Shown piece by piece: positions 44,123-59,323 of a DNA stretch of 64,000 nucleotides; position 1 is the first letter of the stretch, and the number at the start of each line of letters is the position of its first letter. A program made the translations under genes and the position numbers. Source of the DNA: Pseudomonadota bacterium. GTDB lineage: Bacteria; Pseudomonadota; Alphaproteobacteria; Acetobacterales; Acetobacteraceae. A model generated the notes under the pieces. It was not told where the DNA came from. It searched no databases and worked only from the letters and a program-made list of their open reading frames with translations. The stretch covers positions 6,940 to 70,939 of the forward strand of contig JABBOH010000019.1 of the NCBI GenBank assembly GCA_019351895.1, read 5' to 3'.

Positions 44123-44237
44123 CCTGAAGGCGCAGGCGTGGCGGTTGCCGCCCTACTGTCGGCGCGCCTTGCTGTGGGCCCGCCTTGCTGGGCCGGACCG
44201 GGATATGGGAGAACGGCCCCGTGCGGAGACGGATGCC

Positions 44238-45311
44238 ATGTCACAGGTGATCGCCGAAGGACGGGACCGCCGGCAGGAGACAGCCCGGCACCGGGCTGCC
44301 CAAACTGCCGTCAGGACGGCCGCCGACGCCCTGCCCCCGGACCTCGCCCATCTCGCCGAGGGCCCCTTCGCCGAAGCGCTGGCGACCGCCATCGATTTCG
44401 CGCAGCGATCGGTCTCGCCCGCCACCGAGAAGATCTACGGCGATGACTGGACCGCCTTCCGCGTCTGGTGCCTGGAGCACGGCGCGCCCTATCTGCCGGC
44501 TCCCCCCGCGATCGTCGCCGCCTATCTCGCCGCGCGCTCCAAGACCCTCGGCCGCAGCGGGCTGAGGCTCATCCTCGCCGCCATCGCCTTCCATCATCGC
44601 CGGGCAGGACATCTCTGGGTGGCGGGCGACCCCGTCATCGCCACCGTCATGCGCGGCATCCTGCGCGCGCAGAAGCGGCCCGTGCGCCCGGCGGCGGCGC
44701 TGACCTCCGCCGAAATCCGCCTGTTGCTCGGCAGTTGCGACGACAGCCTGCCGGGGCGGGCGGGTCTTCTGGCCGTGCGGGACCGCGCGCTGCTGCTGAC
44801 CTGCTTCGCGGGCGGGTTGCGCCGCTCGGAACTCGTGGCGCTCGACCGCGAGGATCTGCGTTTCACCGCCGACGGCCTCGTGCTGCGCATCCGCCACTCC
44901 AAGGGCGACCAGGAGGGCGAAGGCGCCGATGTGCGCATCGCGCGCGGAGCCCGTCCGGCCACCTGCCCGGTGCGCGCGATGGAGGGCTGGCTGAGCCGCT
45001 CCGGCATCGCCTACGGCGCGGTCTTCCGCCGCATCACGGGCGGCGGACGCACCGAGGACCGCCTGACCGGCAATGGCGTGTGGAAGATCCTCCGCCGCCG
45101 CGCGGCCCTCGCGAACCTCGTCGTGCCCGACGGCGAGCGCCTGTCTCCGCACGGCATGCGCGCGGGCTTCGTGACGGAAGCCTATCTCAACGGCGCGCTC
45201 GACGAGCAGGTGATGGCCCATGCGCGCCAGAAGGACGTGACGACGACGCGCCGCTACCGCAACCGCGCCAAGACGGTGGCGGCGAGCCCGACGAAGCTGC
45301 TCGATCTCTGA
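44238..45311 (+). CDS. tyrosine recombinase (site-specific integrase)
   Basis: A 357-residue integrase with a SAM-like N-terminal core-binding domain (SPATEKIYGDDWTAFRVWCL) and a catalytic domain. The catalytic residues visible are Arg in CFAGGLRRSELVAL, Lys in RHSKGDQEG, the HxxR of SPHGMRAGF and the nucleophile Tyr in TTTRRYRNR. All appear intact. It overlaps the next gene (TGATG) and forms a three-gene operon with a ScpA-like gene, which is not the usual setting of a phage integrase; a role in replicon maintenance is possible. The ATG at 44238 has GGAG nine bases upstream. Confidence 0.9.
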   Translation: MSQVIAEGRDRRQETARHRAAQTAVRTAADALPPDLAHLAEGPFAEALATAIDFAQRSVSPATEKIYGDDWTAFRVWCLEHGAPYLPAPPAIVAAYLAARSKTLGRSGLRLILAAIAFHHRRAGHLWVAGDPVIATVMRGILRAQKRPVRPAAALTSAEIRLLLGSCDDSLPGRAGLLAVRDRALLLTCFAGGLRRSELVALDREDLRFTADGLVLRIRHSKGDQEGEGADVRIARGARPATCPVRAMEGWLSRSGIAYGAVFRRITGGGRTEDRLTGNGVWKILRRRAALANLVVPDGERLSPHGMRAGFVTEAYLNGALDEQVMAHARQKDVTTTRRYRNRAKTVAASPTKLLDL

Positions 45312-45940
45312 TGAGCGTCGCCGGGGCCGCGACCGGCGCGGAGGGCTGGGCCGCCGACCCGATGGCGCTGCCCAGCACGGACTGGCTGCGGCACACGCTT
45401 GCGGTGACGGGGCCGGCCGAGGACGTGGCGCGGCTCGCCGCCGCCGCCGAGGGCTCGGGCGTGATTCCCTGGTTCTACCCCGACCTCGACACGATGGAGG
45501 AGGATCAGCGGCTTGCCCTGCTGCGGCCGCCGGACGGCTCCCCCGGCCTGCCGCCGGCCGCGGCCCGGGTTCTCGCGCGCCAGTTGCGGGAGGCGGTCGC
45601 GCGCCGCCATGAGCAGGTGATGGCGGCGGCGGCGGCGGGCCGCGGCTGCGCCTTCGATCTTCATGCGCTGCTGCCGGTGCCGGGTGCGATCCTGCGGCGG
45701 GGCCCAGCCGATCCCGCCGCGCGGGCCTGGATGCGCGCGCAGTGGGGCGTCATCCAGCCGCTCCGCCGGGTCGAGCGACTGCCCGGCAGCGGCGATGGCC
45801 GGCGGCGGCGCGCGGCGCGGATAGACTACGGCTTCTGGTCGGCGGACTGGACCCCCTGGGCCGCGATCAGCACGCTGCGCGAGGCTTGGCCGCACCTCGC
45901 CTTCGACATCCGCCCCCAGTACGACGACGCCCGTGACTGA
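45311..45940 (+). CDS. unknown protein between integrase and ScpA-like gene
   Basis: A 209-residue protein starting with MSVAGAATGAEGWAADPMAL. Recognisable segments are STDWLRHTLAVTGPAEDVAR, VIPWFYPDLDTMEEDQ and a C-terminal DYGFWSADWTPWAAISTLRE. It is probably soluble. I cannot name a family. It overlaps the integrase stop by one base and the ScpA-like start by eight, so all three are made together, suggesting a shared role in DNA transactions. Confidence 0.7.
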   Translation: MSVAGAATGAEGWAADPMALPSTDWLRHTLAVTGPAEDVARLAAAAEGSGVIPWFYPDLDTMEEDQRLALLRPPDGSPGLPPAAARVLARQLREAVARRHEQVMAAAAAGRGCAFDLHALLPVPGAILRRGPADPAARAWMRAQWGVIQPLRRVERLPGSGDGRRRRAARIDYGFWSADWTPWAAISTLREAWPHLAFDIRPQYDDARD

Positions 45941-46724
45941 GCGCGACACCGCTGGCGGCCTCACCCTCCACCTCGGCGCCTTCGACGGCCCGATGGACGT
46001 GCTGCTCGCCCTCGCGGAACGGCAGCGGATCGACCTCGGCCTGATCTCGATCCGGGCGCTTGCGGAGCAGTTCGTGGCGGAGCTGGAGCGGCTGGCCGAC
46101 CATGTGCCGCTGGAACGCCGGGCCGACTGGCTGGTGATGGCGGCGCGGCTGGTGCAACTGCGGTCCCGCCTGCTGTTCCCCGAGAACACAGAAGCCGTGG
46201 AGAGCGCCGCCCGCGAGGCCGCGAGCGCGATCCGCCAGATCGAGACGCTGGCCGAAATCCGCGCGGCGGCGGATTGGCTGCAAGGGAGGCCGCAACTCGG
46301 CCTGGAGGTCTTCAGCCGACCGCCGCCCGAGATGCCGCGGGCGAGCGGCTACGTGGTGCTGATGGAAGCCTGTCTCGCCGTGCTGCGCGGCCGGGACGGA
46401 CAGCCTTCGGATGCGCCGGTCTATCAACCGCGGGTTCCGCAGCTATGGCGTGCGACGGATGCGATCGCGCGCATCATGGCACTGTTGCCCGCGCATCCAG
46501 ACGGCAGCCCGATCGAGGCTTTCCTGCCCGCGGTACCGCCGGGTGCGGATCGCGAGGTGCGGGCGCGCGGCGCGGTCTCAGGCACGTTTCTTGCGGGACT
46601 TGAACTGGCGCGGGAGGGCAGCCTGAGCCTGGAGCAGCTTTCTCCCTATGGGACGGTGACCCTGCGCCCAACGGCAAGACCCAGCCGTCACGAAGCCTCT
46701 AAAGAATGTTTGCCGATAATATAG
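45933..46724 (+). CDS. ScpA-like segregation and condensation protein (accessory copy)
   Basis: A 263-residue kleisin-type protein. The N-terminus LHLGAFDGPMDVLLALAERQ and SIRALAEQFVAELERL are the ScpA signature, and VMAARLVQLRSRLLFPEN continues it. ScpA bridges SMC heads in chromosome condensation. The start is a GTG at 45933. No scpB follows and the gene is in an operon with a recombinase, so this is probably a specialised paralogue rather than the chromosomal scpA, which is normally beside scpB. Confidence 0.82.
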   Translation: MTERDTAGGLTLHLGAFDGPMDVLLALAERQRIDLGLISIRALAEQFVAELERLADHVPLERRADWLVMAARLVQLRSRLLFPENTEAVESAAREAASAIRQIETLAEIRAAADWLQGRPQLGLEVFSRPPPEMPRASGYVVLMEACLAVLRGRDGQPSDAPVYQPRVPQLWRATDAIARIMALLPAHPDGSPIEAFLPAVPPGADREVRARGAVSGTFLAGLELAREGSLSLEQLSPYGTVTLRPTARPSRHEASKECLPII

Positions 46725-46759
46725 GCATTGTGACTGTATAGACGGCATTTTGTCTGCTC

Positions 46760-46787
46760 TTGACAGCGTGATCATGTAGAATAGACT
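46760..46787 (+). promoter_or_regulatory. candidate promoter of the amide operon
   Basis: A consensus -35 box TTGACA (46760-46765) is followed after 16 bp by TAGACT (46782-46787). Transcription would begin near 46794, just before the leader hairpin and about 130 bases before the first gene. Confidence 0.6.
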
Positions 46788-46795
46788 GGAAACTA

Positions 46796-46916
46796 GGCAG
46801 AAGGAGCAAATGCGCTCTTTGAATTCTGCCGCGACTGTCGTTCTCCGCTTGGCACTGCCGCCGCTGACTAACCTCAAGCCGCGTCGAAACCAGCCTGCAG
46901 TCGCGGGCATGCCAAG
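46796..46916 (+). promoter_or_regulatory. structured leader of the amide operon (candidate AmiR/ANTAR target)
   Basis: Three pairings can be drawn. P1: GGCAGAA (46796-46802) with TTCTGCC (46824-46830), enclosing GGAGC-AAATGC-GCTCT, so a long hairpin with a hexaloop. P2: CCGCGACTG (46829-46837) with CAGTCGCGG (46898-46906). P3: CTTGGCA (46848-46854) with TGCCAAG (46910-46916). P2 and P3 cross, so they are alternatives or a pseudoknot, and P3 covers the AAGG ribosome binding site of the first gene. ANTAR proteins such as AmiR act on leader hairpins with six-base loops; here the loop has A first but G fifth, not fourth. The region is not coding. Confidence 0.55.
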
Positions 46917-46924
46917 GTGCAAGG

Positions 46925-48064
46925 TTGACCAATCCACTCAAGATCGGGTTGCTGCTGTCGACGACCGGGCCCTATGGGCCGATGGCGCGCGCCAGCCTGC
47001 ACGGCGCGCTGCTCGCGATCGAGGCGGTCAATGCCGATCCCGCTCGCCCTTTCACCCTGGTCCCGGTGAGGGCCGACCCGGGCGGCGAGCCCGCGCTTTA
47101 CGCGCATCACGCGGCGGCACTTCTGGACCAGGGCATCCGCCACGTCGTCGGCTGCTACACCTCCCTCAGCCGCAAGGAGGTCGTGCCGATCTTCGAGAAG
47201 CGGGATGCGCTGCTGTGGTATCCCACGCATTACGAAGGTTTCGAGGCGTCCCCCAACGTCGTCTATGTCGGCGCCGCGCCCAATCAGCATATCGTGCCGC
47301 TGGCAAGCTGGGCGCTGCGCCATGTCGGGCGCTCGGCCTATTGCGTCGGCTCCAACTACGTCTGGGCCTGGGAGACGAACCGTGTGCTGCGCGAGGCGCT
47401 GATCCCGGCGCGCGGCCGCATCCTGGGCGAGCGATACATCGCGGTCGCCGATCTCGATGTCGACCACGTCGTGCAGGACATCCTGCGCACGCGGCCGGAT
47501 TTCGTCTTCTGCACCCTGATCGGGGCGTCCGCCGCGCGGTTCATCACCGCGCTTCGCGCCGCCTGCCGCGCCACCGGCATCGACCAGCCGCGCGACATGC
47601 CGCTGCTGACCTGCAACCTCAACGAGACGACGATGGAGGGCGTGCCGCCGGAAGCGCGCGACGGCCATATCAGCTCGTCGGTGTATTTCTCGTCGGTATC
47701 CTCGCCCGAAAGCCATGCCTTCGTCGCTGACTTCGAGCGGCACTTCGGGGCCGCGCCCTCGGCCGATTCCGAGGCGTCGTTCTGTGCCGTGCATCTGCTT
47801 GCGCGCGCCATCGCGGCGGCGGGCAGCGACGACATCGGCGCGGTACGCGCGGCCGTGACCGGGTTGCATCTGCAAGCGCCGCAGGGCGAGGTCACGATCG
47901 ACGCCGACACCATGCATGCGTGGCTCACGCCGCGCATCGGCCGCTCGCGCGCCGATGGCGGCTTCGACATCATCGAGGAATCGGCGGTCCCGGTCAGGCC
48001 CGATCCCTATCTGGTGGCCAGCACCCCGCGGCGGACCCCGATCTCGCTCAGGCTCGTATCGTGA
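46925..48064 (+). CDS. amiC: AmiC-like amide-sensing regulator (periplasmic-binding fold, cytoplasmic)
   Basis: A 379-residue type I periplasmic-binding fold without a signal peptide (TNPLKIGLLLSTTGPYGPM), so it stays in the cytoplasm like Pseudomonas AmiC. Family segments include HVVGCYTSLSRKEVVPIFEK, LWYPTHYEGFE and YCVGSNYVWAWETNRVLREA. In the known system AmiC binds AmiR and releases it when a short amide is bound. The next gene encodes an AmiR-like protein, overlapping by four bases (GTGA). The start is a TTG at 46925 with AAGG seven bases upstream. Without amiR beside it, this would be called a urea-type binding protein. Confidence 0.85.
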   Translation: MTNPLKIGLLLSTTGPYGPMARASLHGALLAIEAVNADPARPFTLVPVRADPGGEPALYAHHAAALLDQGIRHVVGCYTSLSRKEVVPIFEKRDALLWYPTHYEGFEASPNVVYVGAAPNQHIVPLASWALRHVGRSAYCVGSNYVWAWETNRVLREALIPARGRILGERYIAVADLDVDHVVQDILRTRPDFVFCTLIGASAARFITALRAACRATGIDQPRDMPLLTCNLNETTMEGVPPEARDGHISSSVYFSSVSSPESHAFVADFERHFGAAPSADSEASFCAVHLLARAIAAAGSDDIGAVRAAVTGLHLQAPQGEVTIDADTMHAWLTPRIGRSRADGGFDIIEESAVPVRPDPYLVASTPRRTPISLRLVS

Positions 48065-48684
48065 CGGCCCCTGTCCGCATCCAGAATTTCAGCGGTCTGC
48101 GTGCGGCCATCGTGAGCCACCAGACCGACCCCGAGCAGCCCCTTGCCGCGGCGTTGCAGCGGCTTGGCCTTTCGGTCGCCTTCTGCGACCCCGAACTCGG
48201 CTGGCCGGACGCGCTCGACCCTGAGCGTGACCTGCTCATCGTCGAAGGCGATCTCCATCTGAAGGGTATCGCCGGGGCCGAGGAGTGCGCGATCGCGGAT
48301 GTGCCGGTGATCGGTCTGCTCGGCGTCGAGGCGCCGGGGCGGCTGCGCGCACTCATGGCGCTCGGTGCGACGGCCTTCCTCCGCAAGCCGGTCTATGGAC
48401 CCGCCGTCTATTCCGCCGTGTTCCTCGCGGTGAACACGCATCGCGAGCGGCGGCATCTTCGCGCTCAGATCGCGGGGCATGAGCGGCGGCGCGGCGGGCG
48501 GCGCTTTGTCATCAAGGCCGTGCTCGCCCTGATGCGGCGCGACGGGTGCGACGACGAGCAGGCCTACGAAGTGCTGCGCCGCGCCGCCATGCGCGAGCGC
48601 GTCAGCATCGAGACCTATTGCGAGACGTGGATTGCGACCGATGCCGACACATCGGCCGTGACCCGCGCACACGCGCAGCTCTGA
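48061..48684 (+). CDS. amiR: AmiR-like ANTAR-domain transcription antiterminator
   Basis: A 207-residue protein with a pseudo-receiver N-terminal domain (GLRAAIVSHQTDPEQPLAAA; no phosphorylatable Asp in the usual place), a coiled coil (NTHRERRHLRAQIAGHERRR) and a C-terminal three-helix ANTAR RNA-binding domain (FVIKAVLALMRRDGCDDEQA followed by LRRAAM). Size and order match Pseudomonas AmiR. It would bind the operon leader and prevent termination when AmiC senses inducer. The start is a GTG at 48061 overlapping the amiC stop; 28 bases separate it from the transporter gene. Confidence 0.87.
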   Translation: MTAPVRIQNFSGLRAAIVSHQTDPEQPLAAALQRLGLSVAFCDPELGWPDALDPERDLLIVEGDLHLKGIAGAEECAIADVPVIGLLGVEAPGRLRALMALGATAFLRKPVYGPAVYSAVFLAVNTHRERRHLRAQIAGHERRRGGRRFVIKAVLALMRRDGCDDEQAYEVLRRAAMRERVSIETYCETWIATDADTSAVTRAHAQL

Positions 48685-48712
48685 TCAATTCCCCATCAAT
48701 AAAGGACAGCGA

Positions 48713-49987
48713 ATGGACAAGCCCAATCCGCTTCAAGCCGCAACGCCCGGCGCTTCCCGCCGGAACCTGCTGAAGACCTCGGCGGCCGTACTCGGCGGCG
48801 CGTTGGCGGCACCTCTGGTGGCCCGCCGCGCAGAGGCCTCGGACACCATCAAGGTCGGCAGCCTGCTCGATCTTTCCGGCCCGCTCGGCAGCTCCGGCCT
48901 CGGCATGTATCAGGCGATCCAGGTCGGCGTCGAAGAGGTCAACAAGGCCGGCGGGCTGCTTGGCAAGCAGATCCAGCTCATCAACTACGACACGCAGTCC
49001 AACATCCAGCTCTATTCGCAGTATGCGCAGAAGCTGGCGCTGCAGGATCAGGTCGCCGTCGTGCACGGCGGCATCACCTCCGCCTCGCGCGAAGCGATCC
49101 GCCCGGTGTTCGACCGCTACAAGACGCTCTATTTCTACAACGTGCTCTACGAAGGCGGCGTCTGCGACCGCGACATCTTCTGCACCGGCACCACGCCCGC
49201 GCAGACCGTGCAGAAGCTTGTGCCCTATGCTCTGAGCAGCTGGGGCAAGAAGGCCTACATCATCGCCGCCGACTACAACTATGGCCAGATCACCGCCAAG
49301 TGGATGGCGAAATACACGCGTGACAACGGCGGCAGCGTTCAGTCGGTGGACTTCTTCCCGCTCGACGTGACGGATTTCAGCGCCACCATCAGCAAGATCC
49401 AGCAGGCCGGCCCGTCCGTCGTGCTCTCGGCGCTGGTCGGCTCGAACCATACGGCCTTCTACCGCCAGTGGGCCGCCGCGGGCATGCTCCACAAGATCCC
49501 CATCGCTTCCACGACCTTCGGCCTCGTCGATGAAATCCATACGCTGGCGGCGAGCGAGAGCGACGGCATCGTCACCTCGTACGGCTACTACCAGGAGATC
49601 GACACCCCCGCGAGCAAGGCCTTCGTCAGCGCGATCGAGACCAAGTTCGGCAGCAAGATCCCATATATCAGCGAGCTGTCCTGCGACAACTACGAGGGCT
49701 TCAAACTCTGGGCGGCGGGCGTCAAGAAGGCCGGCAGCACAGAACGCATGGCGGTGATAAAGGCGCTGGAGACGGGCATCTCCATCGACGGGCCGTCCGG
49801 AAAGGTCACCATCGACCACCAGACGCATCACGTCATCCGCAACGCCTATCTGGCGAAGGCCGTGAACAAGAGCTGGGACGTGTTCAAGTCCTATCCGAAC
49901 CAGTTCCCATCCGACACGGCGGCGGTCTGCAACCTCATCAAATACCCGCGGACCGACAAGCAATACGTCATCGACGTGAAGGCATAA
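48713..49987 (+). CDS. urea/short-amide ABC transporter substrate-binding protein
   Basis: A 424-residue exported binding protein. The Tat signal is SRRNLLKTSAAVLGGALAAP and ends near RRAEA. The mature part begins DTIKVGSLLDLSGPLGSSGL and keeps the UrtA/FmdD features GGLLGKQIQL, VVHGGITSASREAIRPVFDR and YYQEIDTPASKAFV. It delivers urea or short amides to the permeases encoded next. The first transporter gene after amiCR; AAAGGA precedes the ATG. Confidence 0.9.
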   Translation: MDKPNPLQAATPGASRRNLLKTSAAVLGGALAAPLVARRAEASDTIKVGSLLDLSGPLGSSGLGMYQAIQVGVEEVNKAGGLLGKQIQLINYDTQSNIQLYSQYAQKLALQDQVAVVHGGITSASREAIRPVFDRYKTLYFYNVLYEGGVCDRDIFCTGTTPAQTVQKLVPYALSSWGKKAYIIAADYNYGQITAKWMAKYTRDNGGSVQSVDFFPLDVTDFSATISKIQQAGPSVVLSALVGSNHTAFYRQWAAAGMLHKIPIASTTFGLVDEIHTLAASESDGIVTSYGYYQEIDTPASKAFVSAIETKFGSKIPYISELSCDNYEGFKLWAAGVKKAGSTERMAVIKALETGISIDGPSGKVTIDHQTHHVIRNAYLAKAVNKSWDVFKSYPNQFPSDTAAVCNLIKYPRTDKQYVIDVKA

Positions 49988-49999
49988 CGGAACATCGGC

Positions 50000-50866
50000 A
50001 TGGCGCTCACAGGACTCCTGCTGTTCAACACGCTGACCGGCATCGCCACCCTGGTGCTGATCTGCCTGGGCCTCGGCATCATCTACGGCATGATGAAGAT
50101 CATCAACCTCGCGCATGGCGAGTTCGTCATGCTTGGAGCCTATGTCACGGTCTTCGCCGCCAATGCGGGCGTCAACCTGTGGGTCGCCATGCTGATCCTG
50201 GCCCCCGTCGCAGTCGGTCTGATCGGCCTCGTGGTCGAACGCTGCTTCATCCGCTTCCTCTACGGCCGCATCATCGACACCATGCTGGCGAGCTGGGGTC
50301 TCAGCCTCGCCATCATCGGCATCGTGACCTCGCTGTTCGGCAATACCGTGCGCGGCATCTCGGCGCCGCTGGGATCCTTCCCGATCGGGCATTACCGCAC
50401 TAGCCTCTATGGTGTGTTCATCATCGCCGTCGCCGTCCTCGCAGTCGTCGGCCTCTACGCGCTGCTGCGGATGACGCGCTTCGGCCTCGTCGTGCGCGCA
50501 ACGATGGGCAATCCACGCATGGCCGCGGCCCTCGGCGTAGCGCCACCCCGCATCTACATGGCGACCTTCGCCCTCGGGGCGGGCTTCGCGGGCCTCGCGG
50601 GCGGCGTGCTGGCCCCCGTCTCGGGTGTTTCGCCGGTGATGGGCGCGGCCTTCATCGCCCGCGCCTTCATCACCGTGCTCGGCGGCGGACCCGCCATCAT
50701 CACCGGCACCAGCATCGCCTCCGCGCTGTTCGGCAGCATCGACGAGTTCGCGACCTTCCTGACGACGCCGGTCTTCGGACAGGTGGCGCTGCTGCTCGCG
50801 GCGATCATCATGATCCGCTTCCTGCCGCAGGGCATCACCGGCCGCGTCTTCAGGAGGAGCCTGTGA
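50000..50866 (+). CDS. urea/amide-type ABC transporter permease (UrtB/LivH-like)
   Basis: A 288-residue inner-membrane permease with about eight helices. The branched-chain/urea permease signatures are IIYGMMKIINLAHGEFVMLG near the N-terminus and a C-terminal FLTTPVFGQVALLLAAIIMI region. It forms the membrane channel with the next gene product. It starts 12 bases after the binding-protein stop, and its stop overlaps the next start (GTGA). Confidence 0.92.
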   Translation: MALTGLLLFNTLTGIATLVLICLGLGIIYGMMKIINLAHGEFVMLGAYVTVFAANAGVNLWVAMLILAPVAVGLIGLVVERCFIRFLYGRIIDTMLASWGLSLAIIGIVTSLFGNTVRGISAPLGSFPIGHYRTSLYGVFIIAVAVLAVVGLYALLRMTRFGLVVRATMGNPRMAAALGVAPPRIYMATFALGAGFAGLAGGVLAPVSGVSPVMGAAFIARAFITVLGGGPAIITGTSIASALFGSIDEFATFLTTPVFGQVALLLAAIIMIRFLPQGITGRVFRRSL

Positions 50867-51897
50867 GCAGCGTTCCCTCCGGCTGGCGCGGCTGCCTGCT
50901 CGTCATTCTCGCGGGCTTCGTGCTGCTGTTCGGCCTGCCGCAGGTCGTGAGCCTCTACGGCGTCGTGCAGATGACGGTCTTCGTCGCCATGGCCGTCTTC
51001 GCTCTCAGCCAAGGCTTCATCTGGGGCTTCGGCGGCATCATGTCCTTCGGGCAGTCCGCCTTCTTCGGGCTCGGCGGCTACGTCTATGCGGTCTCCGTCA
51101 TCAACATGGGCGACAGCACCATCCCCGTGCTCCTCGCCATCGCGGTGCCGGCGGCCTTCGCCGCCTTGCTCGGCTACTTCATGTTCTTCGGCCGCATCAG
51201 CGACGCCTATGTCGGCGTCATCACCCTCACCGTCACCATCATCCTGTTCAACGTCGTGAACTCGACATCCGGCGATTTCTACACGATCGGACAGGCGGCC
51301 CTCGGCGGCTTCAACGGCATGCCGAACGTGCCGCCGCTGAACGTGCCGGGTTACCCGGATGCGGCTTTCGGCCCGATCGACACATGGTATTTCGCCATGG
51401 GCGCGCTCATCCTCGTCTACATCCTGCTGCGGGGCATCCTCGCCAGCCGCTTCGGACGCGTGGTCGTCGCCATCCGCGAGAACGAGACGCGCGTGCAGCT
51501 GCTGGGCTACGACGCCCGCGTCTACAAGCTGCTCGTCTTCACCATCGGCGGCGGCGTCGCGGGGCTCGGCGGCTGCATCTTCACCAATTGGGGCGCCTTC
51601 ATCAGCCCCACCATCTTCGGCCTCGCAAGCGCCGCGCAGGTGCTGATCTTCGTCCTTGTCGGCGGCCTCGGCACCCTCGTCGGCCCCGTGCTCGGCGCCT
51701 TCGGGATCGAATACCTCATCTCCATCATCGGCACGCAGCAAACCTTGAACGCCAATCTCGTACTGGGCGCGGTGCTCGTCGCCTTCGTGCTGCTGGTGCC
51801 GCAGGGTCTGGTGCCGGTCGTGTGGAGCGGCATCGGGCGGCTACTGCCCCGGCGCTTCGCCGGCACGGGCGAGCAGACGGCGGAGGCGCAATCATGA
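50863..51897 (+). CDS. urea/amide-type ABC transporter permease (UrtC/LivM-like)
   Basis: A 344-residue partner permease. Signatures are GFIWGFGGIMSFGQSAFFGL, YVGVITLTVTIILFNVV and the cytoplasmic EAA-like loop IRENETRVQLLGYDARVYKL, which contacts the ATPases. The start is a GTG at 50863 overlapping the previous stop; its own stop overlaps the first ATPase start (ATGA), so stoichiometric translation is likely. Confidence 0.92.
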   Translation: MSSVPSGWRGCLLVILAGFVLLFGLPQVVSLYGVVQMTVFVAMAVFALSQGFIWGFGGIMSFGQSAFFGLGGYVYAVSVINMGDSTIPVLLAIAVPAAFAALLGYFMFFGRISDAYVGVITLTVTIILFNVVNSTSGDFYTIGQAALGGFNGMPNVPPLNVPGYPDAAFGPIDTWYFAMGALILVYILLRGILASRFGRVVVAIRENETRVQLLGYDARVYKLLVFTIGGGVAGLGGCIFTNWGAFISPTIFGLASAAQVLIFVLVGGLGTLVGPVLGAFGIEYLISIIGTQQTLNANLVLGAVLVAFVLLVPQGLVPVVWSGIGRLLPRRFAGTGEQTAEAQS

Positions 51898-52631
51898 AAC
51901 TTCCGGTCCCGGATGCAACCCCTCTGCTCGAGGCGAAGGGCGCCACCATGCGGTTCGGCGGCGTCGTTGCCGTCAACGAGGTGGACTTCACCCTGCGCGA
52001 GATGGAGCTGCGCTGCCTGATCGGCCCGAACGGCGCGGGCAAAAGCACCTTCTTCAAGATGCTGACCGGACAACTCAAGCCGAGCGCAGGTCAGATCAGG
52101 CTGCGGGGCGAGAATGTCACGGGCGCCGAGCCGCATCACATCGCGCGCCGCGGCGTCGGCATCAAGACGCAGGTTCCGAACGTCTTCAACGGCCTCAGCG
52201 TCTATGAGAACGTCTTCGTCGCGGCAGGCCGGCGCAAATCGCGCGCCAGCGCCAAACGCATCACCGAGCAGACGCTGGAGCGCGTGCGTCTCACCGGCAT
52301 CACCGGCCGCATGGTGGGGCAGCTCGCGCACGGCCAGCGGCAATGGGTGGAGATCGCCACCGTGCTGGCGCAGGAGCCCGACCTCATCCTGCTCGACGAG
52401 CCGGCGGCGGGCATGACGCATGACGAGGTGCTGCGCACGGCCGAGCTGATCCGCGAGATCAACCGCGCCCAGGCGCTGATCGTGGTCGAGCACGACATGC
52501 AGTTCATCCGCATGATCGCGACGACCGTGACCGTGTTCAACCAGGGCCGCATTCTGGTCGAGGACCATGTGGATCGCGTCATGGCCAATCAAGCGGTGCG
52601 GGACGTCTATCTCGGGAAGCAGGCAGCATGA
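51894..52631 (+). CDS. urea/amide-type ABC transporter ATPase (UrtD/LivG-like)
   Basis: A 245-residue ATPase with Walker A GPNGAGKST, a signature region degenerate at LAHGQRQWVEIA, and Walker B LILLDEPAAGM, ending in the LivG-type VVEHDMQFIRMIATTVTVFN. The signature reads LAHGQ rather than LSGGQ, as is common for UrtD-type subunits. It pairs with the next ATPase to energise transport. The frame opens upstream inside the permease gene, but the ATG at 51894 matches the family start. Confidence 0.92.
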   Translation: MKLPVPDATPLLEAKGATMRFGGVVAVNEVDFTLREMELRCLIGPNGAGKSTFFKMLTGQLKPSAGQIRLRGENVTGAEPHHIARRGVGIKTQVPNVFNGLSVYENVFVAAGRRKSRASAKRITEQTLERVRLTGITGRMVGQLAHGQRQWVEIATVLAQEPDLILLDEPAAGMTHDEVLRTAELIREINRAQALIVVEHDMQFIRMIATTVTVFNQGRILVEDHVDRVMANQAVRDVYLGKQAA

Positions 52632-53335
52632 TGCTTTCGGTGCAAGGGCTACGCTCGGGCTATGGCCGCATCCCCATCCTCGCGGGCGTCACCTTCGCGG
52701 TGGCGGAAGGCGAGTTCGTCGGCATTCTCGGGCATAACGGCATGGGCAAGACCACGCTGCTGCGCACCCTGATGGGTTATCTTCCGGCGACCGCTGGCAC
52801 GGTCAGCTTCGAGGGCCGGGACATCACCGCGGGCACGCCCACCGCGCGGGCGCGCGCCGGCATCGGCTTCGTGCCGCAGGGCCGCGAGATTTTCAGCAGC
52901 CTCAGCGTCTACGAGAATCTGCGCATGGGCTGCCTGCTGTCGCGCAGCGACGAGCGCCGAACGATCGAGGAAGTGCTTGAGATGTTCCCGCGCCTCAAGC
53001 GCCTGCTCGACAGGCCGGGCGGCGCGCTCTCAGGCGGGGAGCAGCAGTTGCTCGCCCTCGCCCGCTGCCTCTGCGGCGCGCCGAAACTCATCCTTCTTGA
53101 CGAGCCAACCGAGGGCATCCAGCCCTCGATCATCGAGGAGATCATCGAAACGCTGCAGGCGCTGCGCCGCGTGCGCGAGGTGACGTTCATCCTCGTCGAG
53201 CAGAACCTGAAGTTCCTCACCGCCCTCTCCCAGCGCATCCTCATCATCCAGAAGGGCCAGATCACGCGCGAGATGAGCCCCGAGGCGATCGCCGACCCCG
53301 AGCTGATCGCGGAGTTCGTCGGCATGGGCGCTTAG
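52628..53335 (+). CDS. urea/amide-type ABC transporter ATPase (UrtE/LivF-like)
   Basis: A 235-residue ATPase with Walker A GHNGMGKTT, signature LSGGEQQLLALARCL and Walker B LILLDEPTEGIQPSIIEEI. GHNGMGKTTLL and EGIQPSII are particular to UrtE, supporting urea/amide rather than amino acid transport. It overlaps the preceding gene by four bases and completes the transporter. It is followed after 66 bases by the first amidase. Confidence 0.93.
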   Translation: MMLSVQGLRSGYGRIPILAGVTFAVAEGEFVGILGHNGMGKTTLLRTLMGYLPATAGTVSFEGRDITAGTPTARARAGIGFVPQGREIFSSLSVYENLRMGCLLSRSDERRTIEEVLEMFPRLKRLLDRPGGALSGGEQQLLALARCLCGAPKLILLDEPTEGIQPSIIEEIIETLQALRRVREVTFILVEQNLKFLTALSQRILIIQKGQITREMSPEAIADPELIAEFVGMGA

Positions 53336-53401
53336 GCACAAGCAAGGCGCTTCTTTCCGAAGCAAGAAGCAAAGACTTCCATCCGATTACAGGAGCAGAC
53401 A

Positions 53402-54916
53402 ATGAGCGTCGAAAGACCAACTTTCGCCCAGCTGCAGGCCATCGTCACCAGCCTCGGCATGGACCTGCCGCCCGAGAAGATCGAGCAGTTCCGCGGCCTG
53501 ATGGACGGCGCCGTCGCCGCCTACAACATCGTCGACGCGCTGCCCGACGAGAAGCCGCGCGTGACCTATCCGCGCACGCCGGGCTATCAGCCGCTGCCGG
53601 AAGAAAACGAATACAACGCCTGGTACGTGAAGTCCGAGGTGCGCGGCGCCGATAGCGGCCCGCTCGCCGGCAAGACCGTCGCGCTGAAGGACAATGTCTG
53701 CCTCGCCGGCGTGCCGATGATGAACGGTGCCGCCACGCTCGAAGGCTTCGTGCCCGATGTCGACGCCACCATCGTGACGCGCATGCTCGATGCCGGCGCC
53801 ACCATCATGGGCAAGGCGCATTGCGAGGCCTTCTGCCTCTCCGGCGGCAGCCATACAGGCGCGCTCGGGCCGGTGCATAATCCGCGCAAGAAGGGCTACT
53901 CGGCGGGCGGCTCGTCCTCGGGTTCTGCGGTGCTCGTCGCGGCCGGCGAAGTGGACATGGCAATCGGCGGCGACCAGGGCGGCTCCATCCGCATCCCCGC
54001 CGCCTTCTGCGGCATCTACGGCATGAAAGGCACCTGGGGCCTCGTGCCCTATACCGGCGTCATGCCCATCGAGAGCACGATCGACCATACCGGACCGATG
54101 ACCGCGACGGTCGCCGACTGCGCGCTGCTGCTCGAAGTGCTGGCGGGGCCGGATGGGCTCGACCCGCGTCAGATGGGCTGCACGACGGCGCGATACACCG
54201 AGGCGCTGGGGCGGGGCGTGGATGGGCTGCGCATCGGCATCGTCACAGAGGGCTTCGGCTGGGGCAATTCCGAGGACGGCGTCGATGCCTCCGTGCGCGC
54301 CGCCGCCGAGCGCTTCCGCAAGATGGGCGCGGTGGTCGAGGAGGTCAGCATCCCCATGCACCGCATCGGCAAGGACATCTGGTCGCCCATCGGCAACGAA
54401 GGGCTCATGGCGCAGATGATGCGCGGCAACGGCATGGGCTTCAACTGGAAGGGCCAGTACACGCTCGGCCTGCTCGACATGCACGCCGCCTGGCGCGAGC
54501 GCGCCAACGATCTTTCCGACACGCTCAAGGTCTCGATGTTCGTCGGCGAGTATTTCACCCGCCACTATCGCGGCCGCTACTACGCGAAGGCGCAGAACAT
54601 CGCCCGCCGCCTGGGTGCCGCCTACGACGCGGCGCTCGCCAAATACGACCTGCTGCTGATGCCGACCCTGCCGATGGTGGCGACGGAAATCCCGCCGGCG
54701 GATGCCGACCTGCCGCTTTACGTGCAGCGCGCCTTCGAGATGATCGTGAACACGGCGCCCTTCGACGTGACGGGCCATCCGTCGATGAGCATTCCCTGCG
54801 GACTGTCGGACGGGCTGCCGGTGGGGCTGATGCTGACGGCCAAGCATTGGGACGAGAGCACCATCTTCGCCGCCGCCGCTGCCTTCGAGGCAGCCGGCGA
54901 CTGGAAGACTTTTTGA
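53402..54916 (+). CDS. amidase (amidase-signature family), first of three
   Basis: A 504-residue serine amidase. The Ser-cisSer-Lys triad is visible as Lys96 ([10 protein letters not shown]), the cis-Ser in [13 protein letters not shown] and the nucleophile Ser195 in [11 protein letters not shown]. An N-terminal helical extension of ~80 residues ([20 protein letters not shown]) resembles Rhodococcus-type aliphatic/aryl amidases (EC 3.5.1.4). It likely hydrolyses an imported amide to acid and ammonia. AGGAG six bases before the ATG. The 66-base gap before it has no clear terminator. Confidence 0.9.
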
Positions 54917-54920
54917 GGCC

Positions 54921-55241
54921 ATGATCACGATCACCGCGATCATCCGCGTGCGGCCGGATGCCGCCGAGGCGATGCAGTCGGCACTCGCCGAGGTCGCCGC
55001 CCATGTGCGCGCGAATGAACCGACGACGATTGCCTTCTACGTCTCGCGCGATCTCGACACGCCGCATGTCTTCACAACCTACGAACGGTTTGTCGATCGC
55101 GCGGCGATGGACCTGCATAACGGGTCGGCGGCGGTCGCGCGCTTCTTCGACACAGCGAAGCCGCTGCTGGATGGACCCGTCATCCTGCATGCTTGCGCGG
55201 AAGTCGCGGCGGTGAGCCGCGCCGGGAGTGACGTTGCATGA
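54921..55241 (+). CDS. ABM-fold (antibiotic biosynthesis monooxygenase-like) small protein
   Basis: A 106-residue ferredoxin-like dimer-type protein: MITITAIIRVRPDAAEAMQS, HVRANEPTTIAFYVSRD, and VFTTYERFVDRAAMDLHNGS with the conserved helix. ABM-fold proteins include quinol monooxygenases and heme-degrading enzymes, but many are catabolic helpers of unknown activity. It is packed between two amidase genes, four bases after one and overlapping the other (ATGA), so it belongs to the same pathway. Confidence 0.8.
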   Translation: MITITAIIRVRPDAAEAMQSALAEVAAHVRANEPTTIAFYVSRDLDTPHVFTTYERFVDRAAMDLHNGSAAVARFFDTAKPLLDGPVILHACAEVAAVSRAGSDVA

Positions 55242-56638
55242 TGGCTCTACACTATCTCGACCTTCTTGAGCTGACGCGGCTCATTCATGACGGCGAACTC
55301 TCCTCGGTTGAGGCGACACGGCATGAGTTGGAGCGCATTGCCGCGCTGGACGGCACGCTGCACAGCTACCTCACCGTGATGGCGGAGAGCGCGCTCGCCG
55401 CCGCCGCCGTGGCCGATGCGGAGATCGCGCGGGGAGACATTCGCGGCCCGCTGCACGGCGCGCCGATCGCGGTGAAGGACCTCTGCTGGACAGCGGACGC
55501 GCCGACGAGCGCCGGCACGCTCATCCACAAGGAGTTCCGGCCGCCCGAGGATGCGACCGTCGTGCGGCGCTTGCGGGAGGCGGGCGCGATCATCCTCGGC
55601 AAGCTCGCGATGACGGAGGGCGCCTACACCGACCATCACCCGTCTCTGGCGACGCCGCGCAACCCCTTCGGCGCCGGACACTGGGTCGGCAGTTCATCCT
55701 CGGGATCGGGCGTCGCGACGGCGGCGGGCCTCTGCTACGGTTCGCTCGGCTCGGACACCGGCGGCTCCATCCGCTTCCCCAGCGCCGCGCAGGGCCTCAC
55801 CGGCATCAAGGGCAGCTGGGGCCGCGTCAGCCGCTACGGCGTCTTCGACCTCGGCCCGACGCTCGACCATGTCGGCCCGATGACGCGGAGCGCGCTGGAT
55901 GCGGGTGCGATGCTCGCCGCCATCGCCGGTCTCGACCCGAAGGACCCGACGGCCGCCGACGTGCCGGTTCCCGACTATCTGGCGACGGCGCGGGACGGCA
56001 TCCGGGGCTTGCGCATCGGCATCGACAGCACCTGGACGGCCGAGGGCGTCGATGAGCCGACAACCGCCGTGATGGCGTCCGTGCGTGCGGTGGTGCGCGA
56101 TCTCGGCGCGACGCTGGTGGAGGTCGCCTTCCCGGACACCGCGCAGATCGTGCGCGACTGGTTCCCGCTCTGCGCCGTCGAAGTCGCGGTCGCCCATCAG
56201 GACACCTATCCGGCGCGCAAGAGCGAGTACGGCCCGTCGCTAGCGGAATTGATCGAGCAAGGCCACGGCGTTTCGGGGCTGGATTACCAGCGGATCGTGC
56301 TGCGGCGGCTGGATTTCGCGGGGCGCGTGCGGGCGCTGATGAAGGACATCGACCTGCTGCTGGTGCCGGTGCAGAGCATCGCCGCGCCGACGCTCGATTT
56401 CCTCGGGCGCTTCGGCGGCAACGAGAGCGTGCTGCATGGCATGCTCAAATTCACCTCGCCCTTCGACATGTCCGGCCACCCGACCATCACCCTGCCCGGC
56501 GGTTTCACCGAAGCGGGCTTGCCGATCGGCTTCCAGTTCGCTGGCCGGCATTGGGACGAGGCGCTGCTGGTCCGCGCCGGCGTGGCCTATCAGGGCGTCA
56601 CGGACTGGCACCGGCGGCACCCGGCGGCGATGCCATGA
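55238..56638 (+). CDS. amidase (amidase-signature family), second of three
   Basis: A 466-residue amidase with Lys80 (GAPIAVKDLCW), the cis-Ser in VGSSSSGSGVATAAG and the nucleophile Ser177 in GSDTGGSIRFPSAA. It resembles GatA-like and biuret/allophanate-type amidases but lacks an allophanate hydrolase C-terminal domain, and no gatB/gatC is present, so it is catabolic. Two Met codons begin it, with the first overlapping the ABM gene stop. Substrate not predictable; the urea-type transporter suggests a small urea derivative or amide. Confidence 0.9.
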   Translation: MMALHYLDLLELTRLIHDGELSSVEATRHELERIAALDGTLHSYLTVMAESALAAAAVADAEIARGDIRGPLHGAPIAVKDLCWTADAPTSAGTLIHKEFRPPEDATVVRRLREAGAIILGKLAMTEGAYTDHHPSLATPRNPFGAGHWVGSSSSGSGVATAAGLCYGSLGSDTGGSIRFPSAAQGLTGIKGSWGRVSRYGVFDLGPTLDHVGPMTRSALDAGAMLAAIAGLDPKDPTAADVPVPDYLATARDGIRGLRIGIDSTWTAEGVDEPTTAVMASVRAVVRDLGATLVEVAFPDTAQIVRDWFPLCAVEVAVAHQDTYPARKSEYGPSLAELIEQGHGVSGLDYQRIVLRRLDFAGRVRALMKDIDLLLVPVQSIAAPTLDFLGRFGGNESVLHGMLKFTSPFDMSGHPTITLPGGFTEAGLPIGFQFAGRHWDEALLVRAGVAYQGVTDWHRRHPAAMP

Positions 56639-56655
56639 GACAAGGAGCACAATCC

Positions 56656-58191
56656 ATGACCGACACCATCGATGTCGTCGAACTGACGGTGGAGGCGATT
56701 GAGAAGGCCTTCGCCGCCGGCACCTACACCTCCGAGGCGCTGACGCAGGCGTTTCTCGATCGCATCGCGATCTACAACGACGCTTACAACGCCGTGGTCT
56801 TTCTCAACCCGGACGCGCTCGCCGATGCCCGCGCAATCGACGCCCGCCGCGCGGCCGGCGAGACGCTCGGGCCGCTCGCCGGCGTGCCCGTGGTGGTGAA
56901 GGACGCCATGGACATGGTGGGCTTCCCCACCACGGGCGGCTGGCGGCTGCTTTATAGCGGCGCGGGCGGCGTCGACCTGATGCCGGGGACGGATGCGCCG
57001 GTGGTCGCGCGCCTCCGCGCCGCGGGCGCCGTGATCCTCGGCAAGACCAACATCCCCGTGCTCAGCCATACCGGCAGCCACGCCAACGACAGCTGGGCGG
57101 GGCCCACCTACAACGCCGCAGGCCGCGCCTTCGTGCCGGGCGGCAGCAGCGCCGGCACGGCGACCGCCGTCGGCGCCAGCATGGCGGTGCTCGGCCTCGC
57201 CGAGGAAACCGGCGGCTCGATCCAGAACCCCGCTTCGGCGCAGGGCTTGGTCGGCATCAAGCCGACCTTCGGTCTCGTCCCGAATGCCGGCGTCATGCCG
57301 CTCTCCGGCCTGCGGGACGTGGTCGGGCCGATCGCCCGCTGCGTCAGGGATGCGGCGCTGACGCTCGACGTGCTGGCGGGCTTCACGGCCGAGGACCCGA
57401 AGACCGTCGCCGGCATCGGCTGCCGCCCGCGCGGCGGCTACACCGCCGGGCTCACCGCGGATGCGTTGGGCGGCGCGCGGATCGGGCTTTATGGCCCGGG
57501 CTGGCGCGACCAGCCGCTGTCGGAGGAAGCGACGCAGCTTTACGAGCAGGCGCAGCAGGAGTTGGAGACCGAAGGCGCGGTGCTGGTGCATGACCCCTTC
57601 GCGGGCTCGGGCTTCGCGGCACTGCGAAAGACCGCGACGCCCGCGACGCATTTCGACGCGCGCGGCTTGGAGTCCATCGCCTACGACGTGCAGAAATACC
57701 TCGAGCGCATGGGGCCGGATGTGGCGCTGCGCGACTTCGCGGCCTTCGCCCAGGCGACGGCGGCGGAGAACCCCTTCGCCGAGGGCGGCGTGCTGAGCTT
57801 CATGCCAGCGCTGCCAGGCTTCCAGGCCTGCCTGGAGAACCCCGCCAAGCCGCCCGATCTGTCGGAGTTCGTTGCCGCGCGCGAAGCCTATCAGGAGGTC
57901 TTCGACGCGGTGATGGCACAACATTCGCTCGACGCCCTGGTGTTTCCGCAGATGCGGGAGCAACTGCCGGGCCTGCACAGCGGCATCCCGATCGCCGAGA
58001 CGACCGTGAGCGAGATCAACATCGCCGGGCTGCCGGGCATCACGATGCCGGCTGGCTACTACGCCTCGGGCGCGCCCTTCTGCCTCGTCTTCGTGGGGCC
58101 GATGTGGAGCGAGGGCCGGCTGCTTGCGCTCGCCCATGCCTACGAGCAGGCGACGAAGCACCGCCGCGCGCCCGCTCTTGCTATCTCATGA
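56656..58191 (+). CDS. amidase (amidase-signature family), third of three
   Basis: A 511-residue amidase with Lys82 (GVPVVVKDAMDM), the cis-Ser in PGGSSAGTATAVGAS and the nucleophile Ser188 in EETGGSIQNPASAQG. Its insert around AGTGDLMP-like VDLMPGTDAPVVARL and the C-terminal AGLPGITMPAGYY are unlike the other two, so it likely has a different substrate. AAGGAG eight bases before the ATG at 56656 decides the start. It is the last gene of the amide operon and converges on a zinc dehydrogenase with only ten bases between stops. Confidence 0.9.
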   Translation: MTDTIDVVELTVEAIEKAFAAGTYTSEALTQAFLDRIAIYNDAYNAVVFLNPDALADARAIDARRAAGETLGPLAGVPVVVKDAMDMVGFPTTGGWRLLYSGAGGVDLMPGTDAPVVARLRAAGAVILGKTNIPVLSHTGSHANDSWAGPTYNAAGRAFVPGGSSAGTATAVGASMAVLGLAEETGGSIQNPASAQGLVGIKPTFGLVPNAGVMPLSGLRDVVGPIARCVRDAALTLDVLAGFTAEDPKTVAGIGCRPRGGYTAGLTADALGGARIGLYGPGWRDQPLSEEATQLYEQAQQELETEGAVLVHDPFAGSGFAALRKTATPATHFDARGLESIAYDVQKYLERMGPDVALRDFAAFAQATAAENPFAEGGVLSFMPALPGFQACLENPAKPPDLSEFVAAREAYQEVFDAVMAQHSLDALVFPQMREQLPGLHSGIPIAETTVSEINIAGLPGITMPAGYYASGAPFCLVFVGPMWSEGRLLALAHAYEQATKHRRAPALAIS

Positions 58192-58201
58192 CGGAGGCTG
58201 A

Positions 58202-59323
58202 CTACATCATGATGATGTGGCGGATGGTTTGCCCTTGCGCCAGCCGGTCGAACCCCTCGTTGATGTCGTCGAGGGTACCGCGGCTCGTCATCAGACGGTC
58301 GACCGGCAGCTTGCCCCGCTGATGGAGCGCGATGTAGCGCGGGATGTCGCGCTTCGGGATGCAGCCGCCGACGTAGCTGCCGCGAAGCACGCGCTCCTCC
58401 ACGACCAGCCGCGAGGGTGACAGCGCAAAGGTATGGGTCGCGTTGGCGAGACCGGCGGTGATGGTGGCGCCGCCGCGCTTCGTCATGAGCACCGCCGTTT
58501 CCAGCGCGCGCACCGAACCCGCCATCTCGAGCGCGTAGTCAACCCCGCCGAGTTCAGCGCGCATCGCCTCCACCGCCGCCGCATCGCCGGCGTTCACGGT
58601 ATCCGTGGCGCCCAGGGTGCGGGCGAAGGCGAGCTTGTCCTCCGCGATGTCGACCGCCACGATCCGCCCGGCCCCCGCTGCCGCGGCGCCGAGCACGGCG
58701 CTCAGCCCGACACCGCCGAGGCCCACCACGGCCACAGTCTGCCCGGCCTTCACCCCGGCGGTGTTGACCACGGCGCCGACGCCGGTGAGGACGGCACAGC
58801 CGAAGACCGCCGCGAGGTCGAAAGGCAGCGCCGGATCGACCTTGACCGCCGAGTGCTCGGAGACGACGGCGTGGGAGGCGAAGGCCGAGACGCCGAGATG
58901 GTGATTGACGGGCGCGCCGCCGAGGGACAGGCGGCGGCCGCCTTCCAGCATCTCGCCCCGGACATTGGCGGCGTTGCCGGGCTCGCAGAGCGCCGGCCGC
59001 CCCTCCGCGCAACACGCGCAATGGCCGCAGGACGGGACGAAGACCAGCACGACATGGTCGCCCCGCGCGAGGCTCCGCACGCCGCGGCCGACCTCCCGCA
59101 CGACGCCGGAGGCCTCGTGGCCGAGCACCATCGGCATCGGCCGCGGCCGGTCGCCGTTGATGACGGAGAGGTCGGAGTGGCAGAGGCCGGCGGCCTTGAT
59201 CTCGACCAGCACCTCGCCGTCTCCGGGTGGCGCCAGCGTCAGCGTCTCGACCGATAGCGCCCGCGACGCGGCATAGGGGGCTGGAGCGGGCGACTGGCGC
59301 AGCACGGCGGCGCGGATATCCAC
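58202..59323 (-). CDS. zinc-dependent alcohol dehydrogenase (class III/benzyl-alcohol type MDR)
   Basis: A 373-residue medium-chain dehydrogenase. The catalytic zinc residues are in GLCHSDLSVI and GHEASGVV, and the structural zinc cysteines in CGHCACCAEGRPALC. The NAD-binding motif is VVGLGGVGLSAVLGAAAAGA. GCAVLTGVGAVVNTAGVKAG is typical of the formaldehyde/aryl alcohol dehydrogenase branch. The GTG at 59323 has AAGGAGG five bases upstream, which decides the start over longer arginine/lysine-rich frames. It faces the amide operon tail to tail and may or may not share its pathway. Confidence 0.9.
   Translation of the reverse strand: MDIRAAVLRQSPAPAPYAASRALSVETLTLAPPGDGEVLVEIKAAGLCHSDLSVINGDRPRPMPMVLGHEASGVVREVGRGVRSLARGDHVVLVFVPSCGHCACCAEGRPALCEPGNAANVRGEMLEGGRRLSLGGAPVNHHLGVSAFASHAVVSEHSAVKVDPALPFDLAAVFGCAVLTGVGAVVNTAGVKAGQTVAVVGLGGVGLSAVLGAAAAGAGRIVAVDIAEDKLAFARTLGATDTVNAGDAAAVEAMRAELGGVDYALEMAGSVRALETAVLMTKRGGATITAGLANATHTFALSPSRLVVEERVLRGSYVGGCIPKRDIPRYIALHQRGKLPVDRLMTSRGTLDDINEGFDRLAQGQTIRHIIMM

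Follow-up and report, generated by a model that had tools for sequence, protein, structure and literature searches.

The operon and its closest described relatives

In Pseudomonas aeruginosa the amide operon has the gene order amiEBCRS. The locus described here lies in a stretch of 64,000 nucleotides (the window) from an Acetobacteraceae assembly of 4.7 Mb, and it has in common with that operon the AmiC sensor family, an AmiR-like protein carrying an ANTAR domain, the amide theme and an RNA leader, but its amiC-amiR pair comes first and is followed by an ATP-binding cassette (ABC) importer and three amidase-signature enzymes rather than AmiE, and its leader is without a detected intrinsic terminator. 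The eleven genes of the original prediction were borne out in coordinates, order and plus-strand orientation, with domain support from Pfam and NCBIfam, and they run in the order AmiC-like sensor, AmiR-like protein, substrate-binding protein (SBP), permeases PermB and PermC, ATPases AtpD and AtpE, amidase Ami1, an ABM-fold protein, and amidases Ami2 and Ami3. What that prediction lacked is a pair of ANTAR-type hexaloop hairpins between a promoter-like site and amiC (leader 46796-46863), and judged from its sequence the locus is probably an operon for the use of amides that is controlled by an RNA-binding switch of its own.

The arrangement of AmiC/AmiR with a transporter and amidases had been taken to be unusual, and in this respect the arrangement itself turned out to be known already, whereas the particular combination of cargo was not found in print. 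The closest published case among the matches listed is a 2026 paper (PMC13209695), the available portions of which describe amiE-amiC-amiR together with ABC genes on the Klebsiella plasmid pKOS9W-1, as well as urtABCDE-fmdA of P. veronii, a Pseudomonas urt locus without amiCR. As far as those portions go, these loci resemble ours in joining AmiC/AmiR with ABC genes and an amidase, or urt genes with a formamidase, but the ABC cluster and the enzyme differ. In addition, the order AmiC, ANTAR protein, urea-type ABC transporter and FmdA is found in seven of nine annotated plasmid loci, which were selected among the highest-ranking of 915 matches. These plasmid operons, from Methylobacterium, Rhizobium, Shinella, Skermanella and Paracoccus, share the order AmiC, ANTAR protein, SBP, two permeases, two ATPases and hydrolase with the window, but their cargo is acetamidase/formamidase, several have T-run terminators, and the SBPs of the seven FmdA operons score 247-266 bits as against 667-769 for window-type relatives. 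The combination of AmiC-AmiR, an ABC importer of the urea type and an amidase is thus already known, and what may be new here is the Ami1-ABM-Ami2-Ami3 cargo, the leader set and its terminator-less state, none of which was found among the matches listed in the literature searched, most subscription papers aside.

A pair of hexaloop hairpins upstream of amiC

The first hairpin of the leader, P1, consists on the plus strand of an outer stem, GGCAGAA/TTCTGCC (46796-46802 with 46824-46830), carrying an inner hairpin whose stem (46803-46807/46814-46818) encloses the hexaloop AAATGC (46808-46813), in which A1 is present and G4 absent. A linker of 19 nt (46831-46849) leads to the second hairpin, P2, TGGC-ACTGCC-GCCG (46850-46863), which displays the canonical A1/G4 hexaloop. 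We compared 13 distinct leaders accompanied by an AmiR scoring above 100 bits, namely those of the window, of eleven other genomes of its family and of Lichenibacterium (L033, where L numbers denote loci); L026 and L027 are named records that stand for two of these genomes, and their copies L114 and L117 were removed as duplicates. A strict rule, defined after the leaders had been inspected, demands 4 or more pairs in the P1 stem and a P1 loop A..G.., a P2 of the form GGC-A..G..-GCC and a loop-to-loop distance of 44-56 nt. The strict pair is found in 11 of the 13 leaders and in none of 500 dinucleotide-shuffle rounds of all 13, and it is absent from 27 other stretches upstream of AmiC genes, some of which are two cuts of one place. 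The two remaining leaders depart from the rule in one hairpin each, the window in P1, its P2 being regular, and L116 in P2. In 8 of the 13 leaders, furthermore, the P1 loop is preceded at 47-53 nt by a TTGAC[AT] element, a spacing that would place P1 close to the start of the mRNA.

The dual-hexaloop RNA of eut and nas leaders likewise carries A1 and G4 in its two hexaloops, as described in the portions available of two papers (PMC3369931, PMC8934654), the first of which, a 2012 survey, also predicted ANTAR-type RNA motifs 5' of urea transporters. Compared with the eut/nas RNA as presented there, the core set of 13 differs in carrying P1 on an outer stem near the presumed mRNA 5' end, in having its loops 44-54 nt apart and in that no terminator was found, and the window differs in addition by its P1 without G4.

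Since MAFFT fails to align the P1 outer stem column by column, this stem was assessed by pairing the 5' flanks with the 3' flanks of other leaders and comparing own with cross-paired stability. The own pairs are jointly more stable than every permutation (0 of 20,000 reach them); taken singly, there is no such advantage for L026 and L027 and little for L102. In alignment A2 the named stem pairs are standard in 91 of 91 cells, 12 of them with double changes, and these two counts and the covariation score were not equalled in any of 500 shuffles.

The strict rule and two covariance models, one built from the 13 leaders (R1) and another without the window (R2), were examined outside the set on plasmid leaders found later, of which nine were used for the rule, leaving out the unannotated L172 and a plasmid hit of AmiR above 100 bits (H6). 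Outside its training set R1 matches the amiC leaders of Methylobacterium (L164, 41.6 bits; L167, 35.9 bits) and Rhizobium (L166, 35.7 bits), and R2 still recovers all three (31.5-39.2 bits). The Shinella leader L168 is matched by R1 at the correct place with 21.2 bits, which is within the noise, given a chance match of 22.0 bits in L074, so that R1 is clear in three of the nine annotated plasmid loci and weak in a fourth. Both loops are present in L164 and L167, the spacings of 42 and 43 nt lying outside the strict rule, and in L168 P2 is accompanied by a P1 loop that starts with G instead of A; the hexaloop pair was not seen in the remaining five. A further R1 match of 25.7 bits, in L125 (1363-1439, minus strand), is located in the gap between amiR and the binding-protein gene and not 5' of amiC. 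As to the window itself, R2 places the leader best within its own 400 nt (13.5 bits, the next 2.6), and a rule relaxed so as to accept any base at position 4 of the P1 loop has one match on both strands of the 64 kb, which is the window leader. No convincing further AmiR target was found in the window's genome, the next match having 21.3 bits and an E-value of 0.35 with 150 of 5096 candidates scored.

The AmiC-like sensor and the AmiR-like protein

The AmiC-like sensor (46925-48064, plus strand, TTG start) matches Peripla_BP_5 with 382 bits, its nearest solved structure is AmiC (1pea, E 1e-65), and the CYxS...RK and YPTxYEGF stretches of 1pea are retained. It is predicted to be, probably, a cytosolic protein; there is no room for a signal peptide, because the Peripla_BP_5 match starts at residue 5. 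The AmiR-like protein (48061-48684, plus strand) comprises a putative pseudo-receiver and an ANTAR domain, and the profile search suggested in the original prediction as a decisive check gave 42.9 bits for ANTAR against a cut-off of 27.3. Its nearest solved structure is AmiR (1qo0, E 3e-6), with a phmmer alignment spanning residues 15-184. The residues by which EutV contacts RNA include R142, K147, Y164, R168, M172 and R175 according to the available part of PMC8934654, and in a hand alignment these correspond to R147, K152, Y169, R173, M177 and R180 of the window AmiR, but the contacts K143, K149, E160, N173 and R177 are replaced by R148, V154, D165, R178 and S182. A second ANTAR gene of the same genome is found on contig C15 (16822-16977, 64.9 bits).

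Control of the operon by AmiR, although predicted, is well supported, because the ANTAR domain is accompanied by the strict hexaloop pair in most leaders of the set and by compensating changes in the P1 outer stem. We propose that an imported small amide would bind cytosolic AmiC and thereby release AmiR, that AmiR dimers would grip the operon RNA at its 5'-proximal P1 and P2 hexaloops so that the whole transcript is expressed, and that amiC and amiR, being within the transcript they control, would be subject to positive autoregulation. The SBP, the two permeases and the two ATPases would import amides, which may then be hydrolysed by Ami1, Ami2 and Ami3, each acting on different amides, with ammonia and acids as products. 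The ABM protein may serve as an accessory of Ami1.

Points against, and the downstream step

A number of observations nonetheless weigh against an operon switched in this way. With U at position 4, the window is the sole one of the 13 leaders without G4 in P1, and only one of the nine outside plasmid leaders (L166) conforms to the strict rule. In a genome-wide search at E 1, with 150 of 8194 candidates scored, R2 does not list the window leader, and it misses it too in a scan of the 64 kb, where other places reach up to 20.7 bits. Two of five covariation measures are no better than shuffles, pairs with double changes and pair types being reached by 293 and 168 of 500 shuffles respectively, and 5 of the 7 named pairs are invariant. 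The window linker measures 19 nt from the outer stem and 31 nt from the inner stem, and it is longer than the eut leader linkers of 5-12 nt, for which the available part of PMC3369931 reports that lengthening to 14 nt impaired induction. The AmiR_N profile gives 22.3 bits on the window AmiR, under its cut-off of 27. Moreover, a single transcript across 11.4 kb is only a prediction, and a second promoter could be situated in the 66-nt gap 5' of Ami1. Finally, an intrinsic terminator, that is a hairpin with a T-run, was detected within 130 nt of amiC in none of the 13 core leaders; folding from P2 to the start codon is no better in the core set than in shuffles (mean z 0.10), and pairing of an anti-P2 element is unsupported, since 2202 of 20,000 permutations reach it. 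A conserved terminator or anti-P2 hairpin, which had been expected, was dropped after the folding, permutation and terminator scans.

With regard to how AmiR would act on the leader, the explanation that survives best, and to which we give nearly even chances, is that it works without an intrinsic terminator, either by blocking Rho-dependent termination or by freeing translation of amiC, the hexaloops having been kept and the U-tract lost. The combination of a hexaloop pair with no terminator found extends from the 13 core leaders to Rhizobium L166 and to Shinella L168 with its G1 in the P1 loop, and C outnumbers G in the P1-P2 linkers of 12 of the 13 leaders (96 C and 51 G in total). This C bias is however a weak lead to Rho and the linker is short for a rut site, and a literature search for ANTAR together with Rho gave nothing pertinent among the matches listed. 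As for translation, the predicted fold of the window contains a 7-bp CUUGGCA/UGCCAAG helix that joins the 5' arm of P2 to a putative Shine-Dalgarno stretch of the ribosome-binding site, but visual inspection of the sister leader L101 did not reveal this helix, and free folding of the window leader is no better than that of shuffles (z -0.08; first 63 nt z -1.54). An occluding helix is kept as a weak idea.

Classic antitermination of the type described for ANTAR systems, in which an intrinsic terminator overlaps P2 and is prevented by AmiR binding, is in our opinion unlikely, even though it has counterparts among the relatives. The 3' arm of P2 is part of a T-run hairpin in the Methylobacterium leaders L164 and L167, the P2 of the hexaloop pair in the amiR-SBP gap of L125 likewise extends into a hairpin and T-run terminator, and the scan detected terminators in 11 of the 31 further entries for AmiC leaders (L164, L167, L169-L171, L173, L174, L106, L108, L018 and L119). 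The second terminator scan is on the other hand also negative for the window; it agrees with the first on L164, where it finds one, and disagrees on L167, where, with a loop limit of 8, it finds none, so that the two scans differ and both could miss some. The original prediction of AmiC/AmiR antitermination is supported by the identity of the two proteins and by the hexaloop leader, but antitermination in the strict sense is unsupported, because the first scan was negative for intrinsic terminators throughout the set of 13 leaders. The leaders of L106 and L173 have hexaloops AATAGC right before their terminators, with G at position 5 and not 4, a shift that the P1 loop of the window shows as well.

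An improbable further explanation is that the leader is decaying in the strain of the window, where P1 would be without its G4 contact and expression constitutive or under another regulator. The unique P1 loop and the failure of R2 to list the window leader are in agreement with this notion, and so is the statement, in the available part of PMC8934654, that the EutV dimer, if it is to prevent termination, has to contact both hexaloops individually. The P1 stems of the window are however perfect, with 7 and 5 pairs when G-U is counted, P2 is canonical, AmiR retains the main residues for RNA contact, and the same portions of PMC8934654 redefine the minimal ANTAR binding motif as one hexaloop.

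Returning to an RNA switch that is functional in the window, we consider it conceivable, at somewhat less than even chances, that these leaders represent a class of ANTAR target RNA which acts without an intrinsic terminator, via Rho termination or translation, on a whole import-hydrolysis operon, with hexaloops about 46 nt apart and P1 on a long stem at the 5' end, and which moves as an amiCR cassette between backgrounds. In any case the AmiR branch of ANTAR regulators gains a comparative set of RNA targets, consisting of 13 leaders and the model matches outside the set, and this set makes testable both the need for G4 in both loops and the action of ANTAR proteins without an intrinsic terminator.

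Operon layout and promoter-like site

A promoter-like site, TTGACA-16-TAGACT (46760-46787, plus strand, 10 of 12 consensus matches), precedes the leader, and its TTGACA coincides with position 46760, at which the operon had been taken to start. It is the sole site of its kind detected across 46500-58400, where the chance expectation is 1.2 over the 12 kb and 0.1 within 46700-46960. Downstream of it the genes are closely packed, AmiC and AmiR overlapping by 4 nt and being followed by gaps of 28 nt to the SBP gene and 12 nt from there to PermB, after which PermB, PermC, AtpD and AtpE overlap successively by 4 nt. The gap 5' of Ami1 already mentioned comes next, and then a gap of 4 nt between Ami1 and ABM, a 4-nt overlap of ABM with Ami2 and, if the ATG of Ami3 is that at 56656, a gap of 17 nt between Ami2 and Ami3. 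A scan of the window with Rfam at gathering scores found two tRNAs and nothing else, and permissive scores gave for 46600-58400 only low matches, all far under the gathering scores. Just upstream of the operon lie a phage-integrase-family gene (44145-45311) and a scpA-like gene (45933-46724).

The transporter and its substrate

The SBP (48713-49987, plus strand) has a Peripla_BP domain, ahead of which are some 40 residues with twin arginines that by eye appear to be of the twin-arginine type. The permeases PermB (50000-50866) and PermC (50863-51897), both BPD_transp_2 proteins, are UrtB-like and UrtC-like, and the ATPases AtpD (51894-52631) and AtpE (52628-53335), both ABC_tran proteins, are UrtD-like and UrtE-like, all four on the plus strand. 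As a correction to the original description of a urea-type transporter, all five proteins, though similar to the models, remain under the curated cut-offs for UrtA (325.4 against 494.8 for the SBP), UrtB (237.7 against 374.25), UrtC (246.8 against 575.55), UrtD (254.8 against 304.1) and UrtE (266.7 against 285.8), and a urea substrate is therefore unsupported. Scavenging of urea or urea derivatives instead of amides is accordingly the least likely of the explanations, and a quite improbable one, for although the transporter belongs to the UrtA-E-like family, urease alpha-subunit genes are found in 10 of 80 Ami1 loci and a biuret hydrolase (6c62) comes second among the solved relatives of Ami2, the operon is without a urease, and Ami1 is closest to an amidase (3a1k) and has relatives near nitrile hydratase genes.

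The amidases and the ABM protein

Ami1 (53402-54916, plus strand) belongs to amidase subfamily PRK07235 (821.6 bits against a cut-off of 545), and its nearest solved structure is 3a1k (E 3e-147), which we take to be the nitrile-hydratase-linked amidase of Rhodococcus N-771. The amide theme of the operon stems from this resemblance and from the nitrile hydratase genes of the split-beta-subunit type found near Ami1 in 5 of 80 loci (L021, L030, L036, L064 and L093). A nitrile hydratase partner in the window's own genome was also considered; the search gave a single alpha-subunit match, which lies on a different contig, is 48% identical to that of L030 and has a different gene context, and we therefore do not regard it as a partner.

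The ABM-fold protein (54921-55241, plus strand, ABM 60.8 bits) is a common neighbour of Ami1, as an ABM gene starts at most 80 nt 3' of Ami1 in 31 of the 77 loci that have at least 600 nt downstream, and the ABM proteins next to Ami1 retain a FTTYERF...AM..HN core. Ami2 (55238-56638, plus strand; PF01425) has the motifs VKD, GSSSSGS and DTGGSI, and its nearest solved relative, ahead of biuret hydrolase, is GatA. Ami3 (56656-58191, plus strand; PF01425), the start of which is most likely the ATG at 56656, is nearest to peptide amidase 1m21, and its TGGSI motif, which the pattern script had missed, was found by eye. With this motif included, all three enzymes carry the Lys-Ser-Ser amidase signature motifs along with PF01425; neither Ami2 nor Ami3 reaches a cut-off among the 25 families listed of 26. 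Contrary to their earlier description as unrelated, the three amidases are homologous, their aligned parts being 32-35% identical in pairwise comparison, and are therefore distinct members of one superfamily.

Distribution and presumed origin of the operon

The Ami1 loci surveyed are the best 80 of 224 relatives, and among those with at least 1.5 kb upstream a transporter ATPase gene on the same strand lies within 1.3 kb in 64 of 75. In 397 genomes of the family, Ami1 is present in 51 (E 1e-150) and AmiR in 26 (E 1e-8). The transporter-Ami1(-ABM) operons of Hyphomicrobiales (L074, L082) have related SBP, permeases, ATPases, Ami1 and ABM in the same order as the window, but differ in carrying upstream a divergent MarR gene and an extra SBP-fold gene, with no AmiC-AmiR there. 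By eye, 30 of the 80 Ami1 loci show such a divergent MarR gene adjoining an SBP-fold gene that precedes the binding-protein gene, although in L029 and L037 the MarR-linked operon is separate from the one joined to the query Ami1. Furthermore, the place of amiCR in the window is occupied in L021 and L030 by split nitrile hydratase genes in divergent orientation.

The cargo of loci that do carry AmiCR is likewise variable, comprising FmdA in L103, L104, L106 and L129, FmdA with Ami3 and Ami1 in L105, Ami3 with Ami1 in L131, Ami1-ABM-Ami2 in L130 and L133, and Ami1 with ABM but without permeases in L101. In the AmiC tree the window, L101, L026 and L027 are grouped together among the AmiCs of other operons, with support (93/95) slightly below the starred level, whereas in the SBP tree, where L033 is represented by its Ami1-linked binding protein, the same four fall with L021 and L030, in which no AmiCR was seen, in a 99/97 group, and this window-type group stands apart from the FmdA-type binding proteins. 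Long-branch warnings apply in the trees to L106, L109, L047, L053, the FmdA-type group and the L105/L131/L132 group. AmiCR with its leader is thus found on two different transporter-amidase backgrounds, and the simplest reading of the trees and gene orders is that amiCR and leader were placed onto an amide operon that is controlled otherwise elsewhere, the direction of this event being our inference. This suggests that a sensor-plus-leader cassette can replace other control on a related amide operon.

Some minor observations concern the relatives. Among the 30 SBP-fold frames beside MarR, 12 start within about 20 residues of the fold and are without a visible signal peptide, the remaining frames being longer or broken, and it is possible that L074, L082 and the 28 others possess a cytosolic binding-protein sensor working with MarR. 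The genus-mate G002 (L101 6059-9551) has AmiC, AmiR, SBP and ABM, and no permease or ATPase match was found in the 20 kb examined. In Pseudoroseomonas cervicalis the AmiR match is divided into two pieces at a distance from each other (L027 4492-4920 and 5159-5323, and the same in L133), and the gene may be interrupted or carry an insertion.

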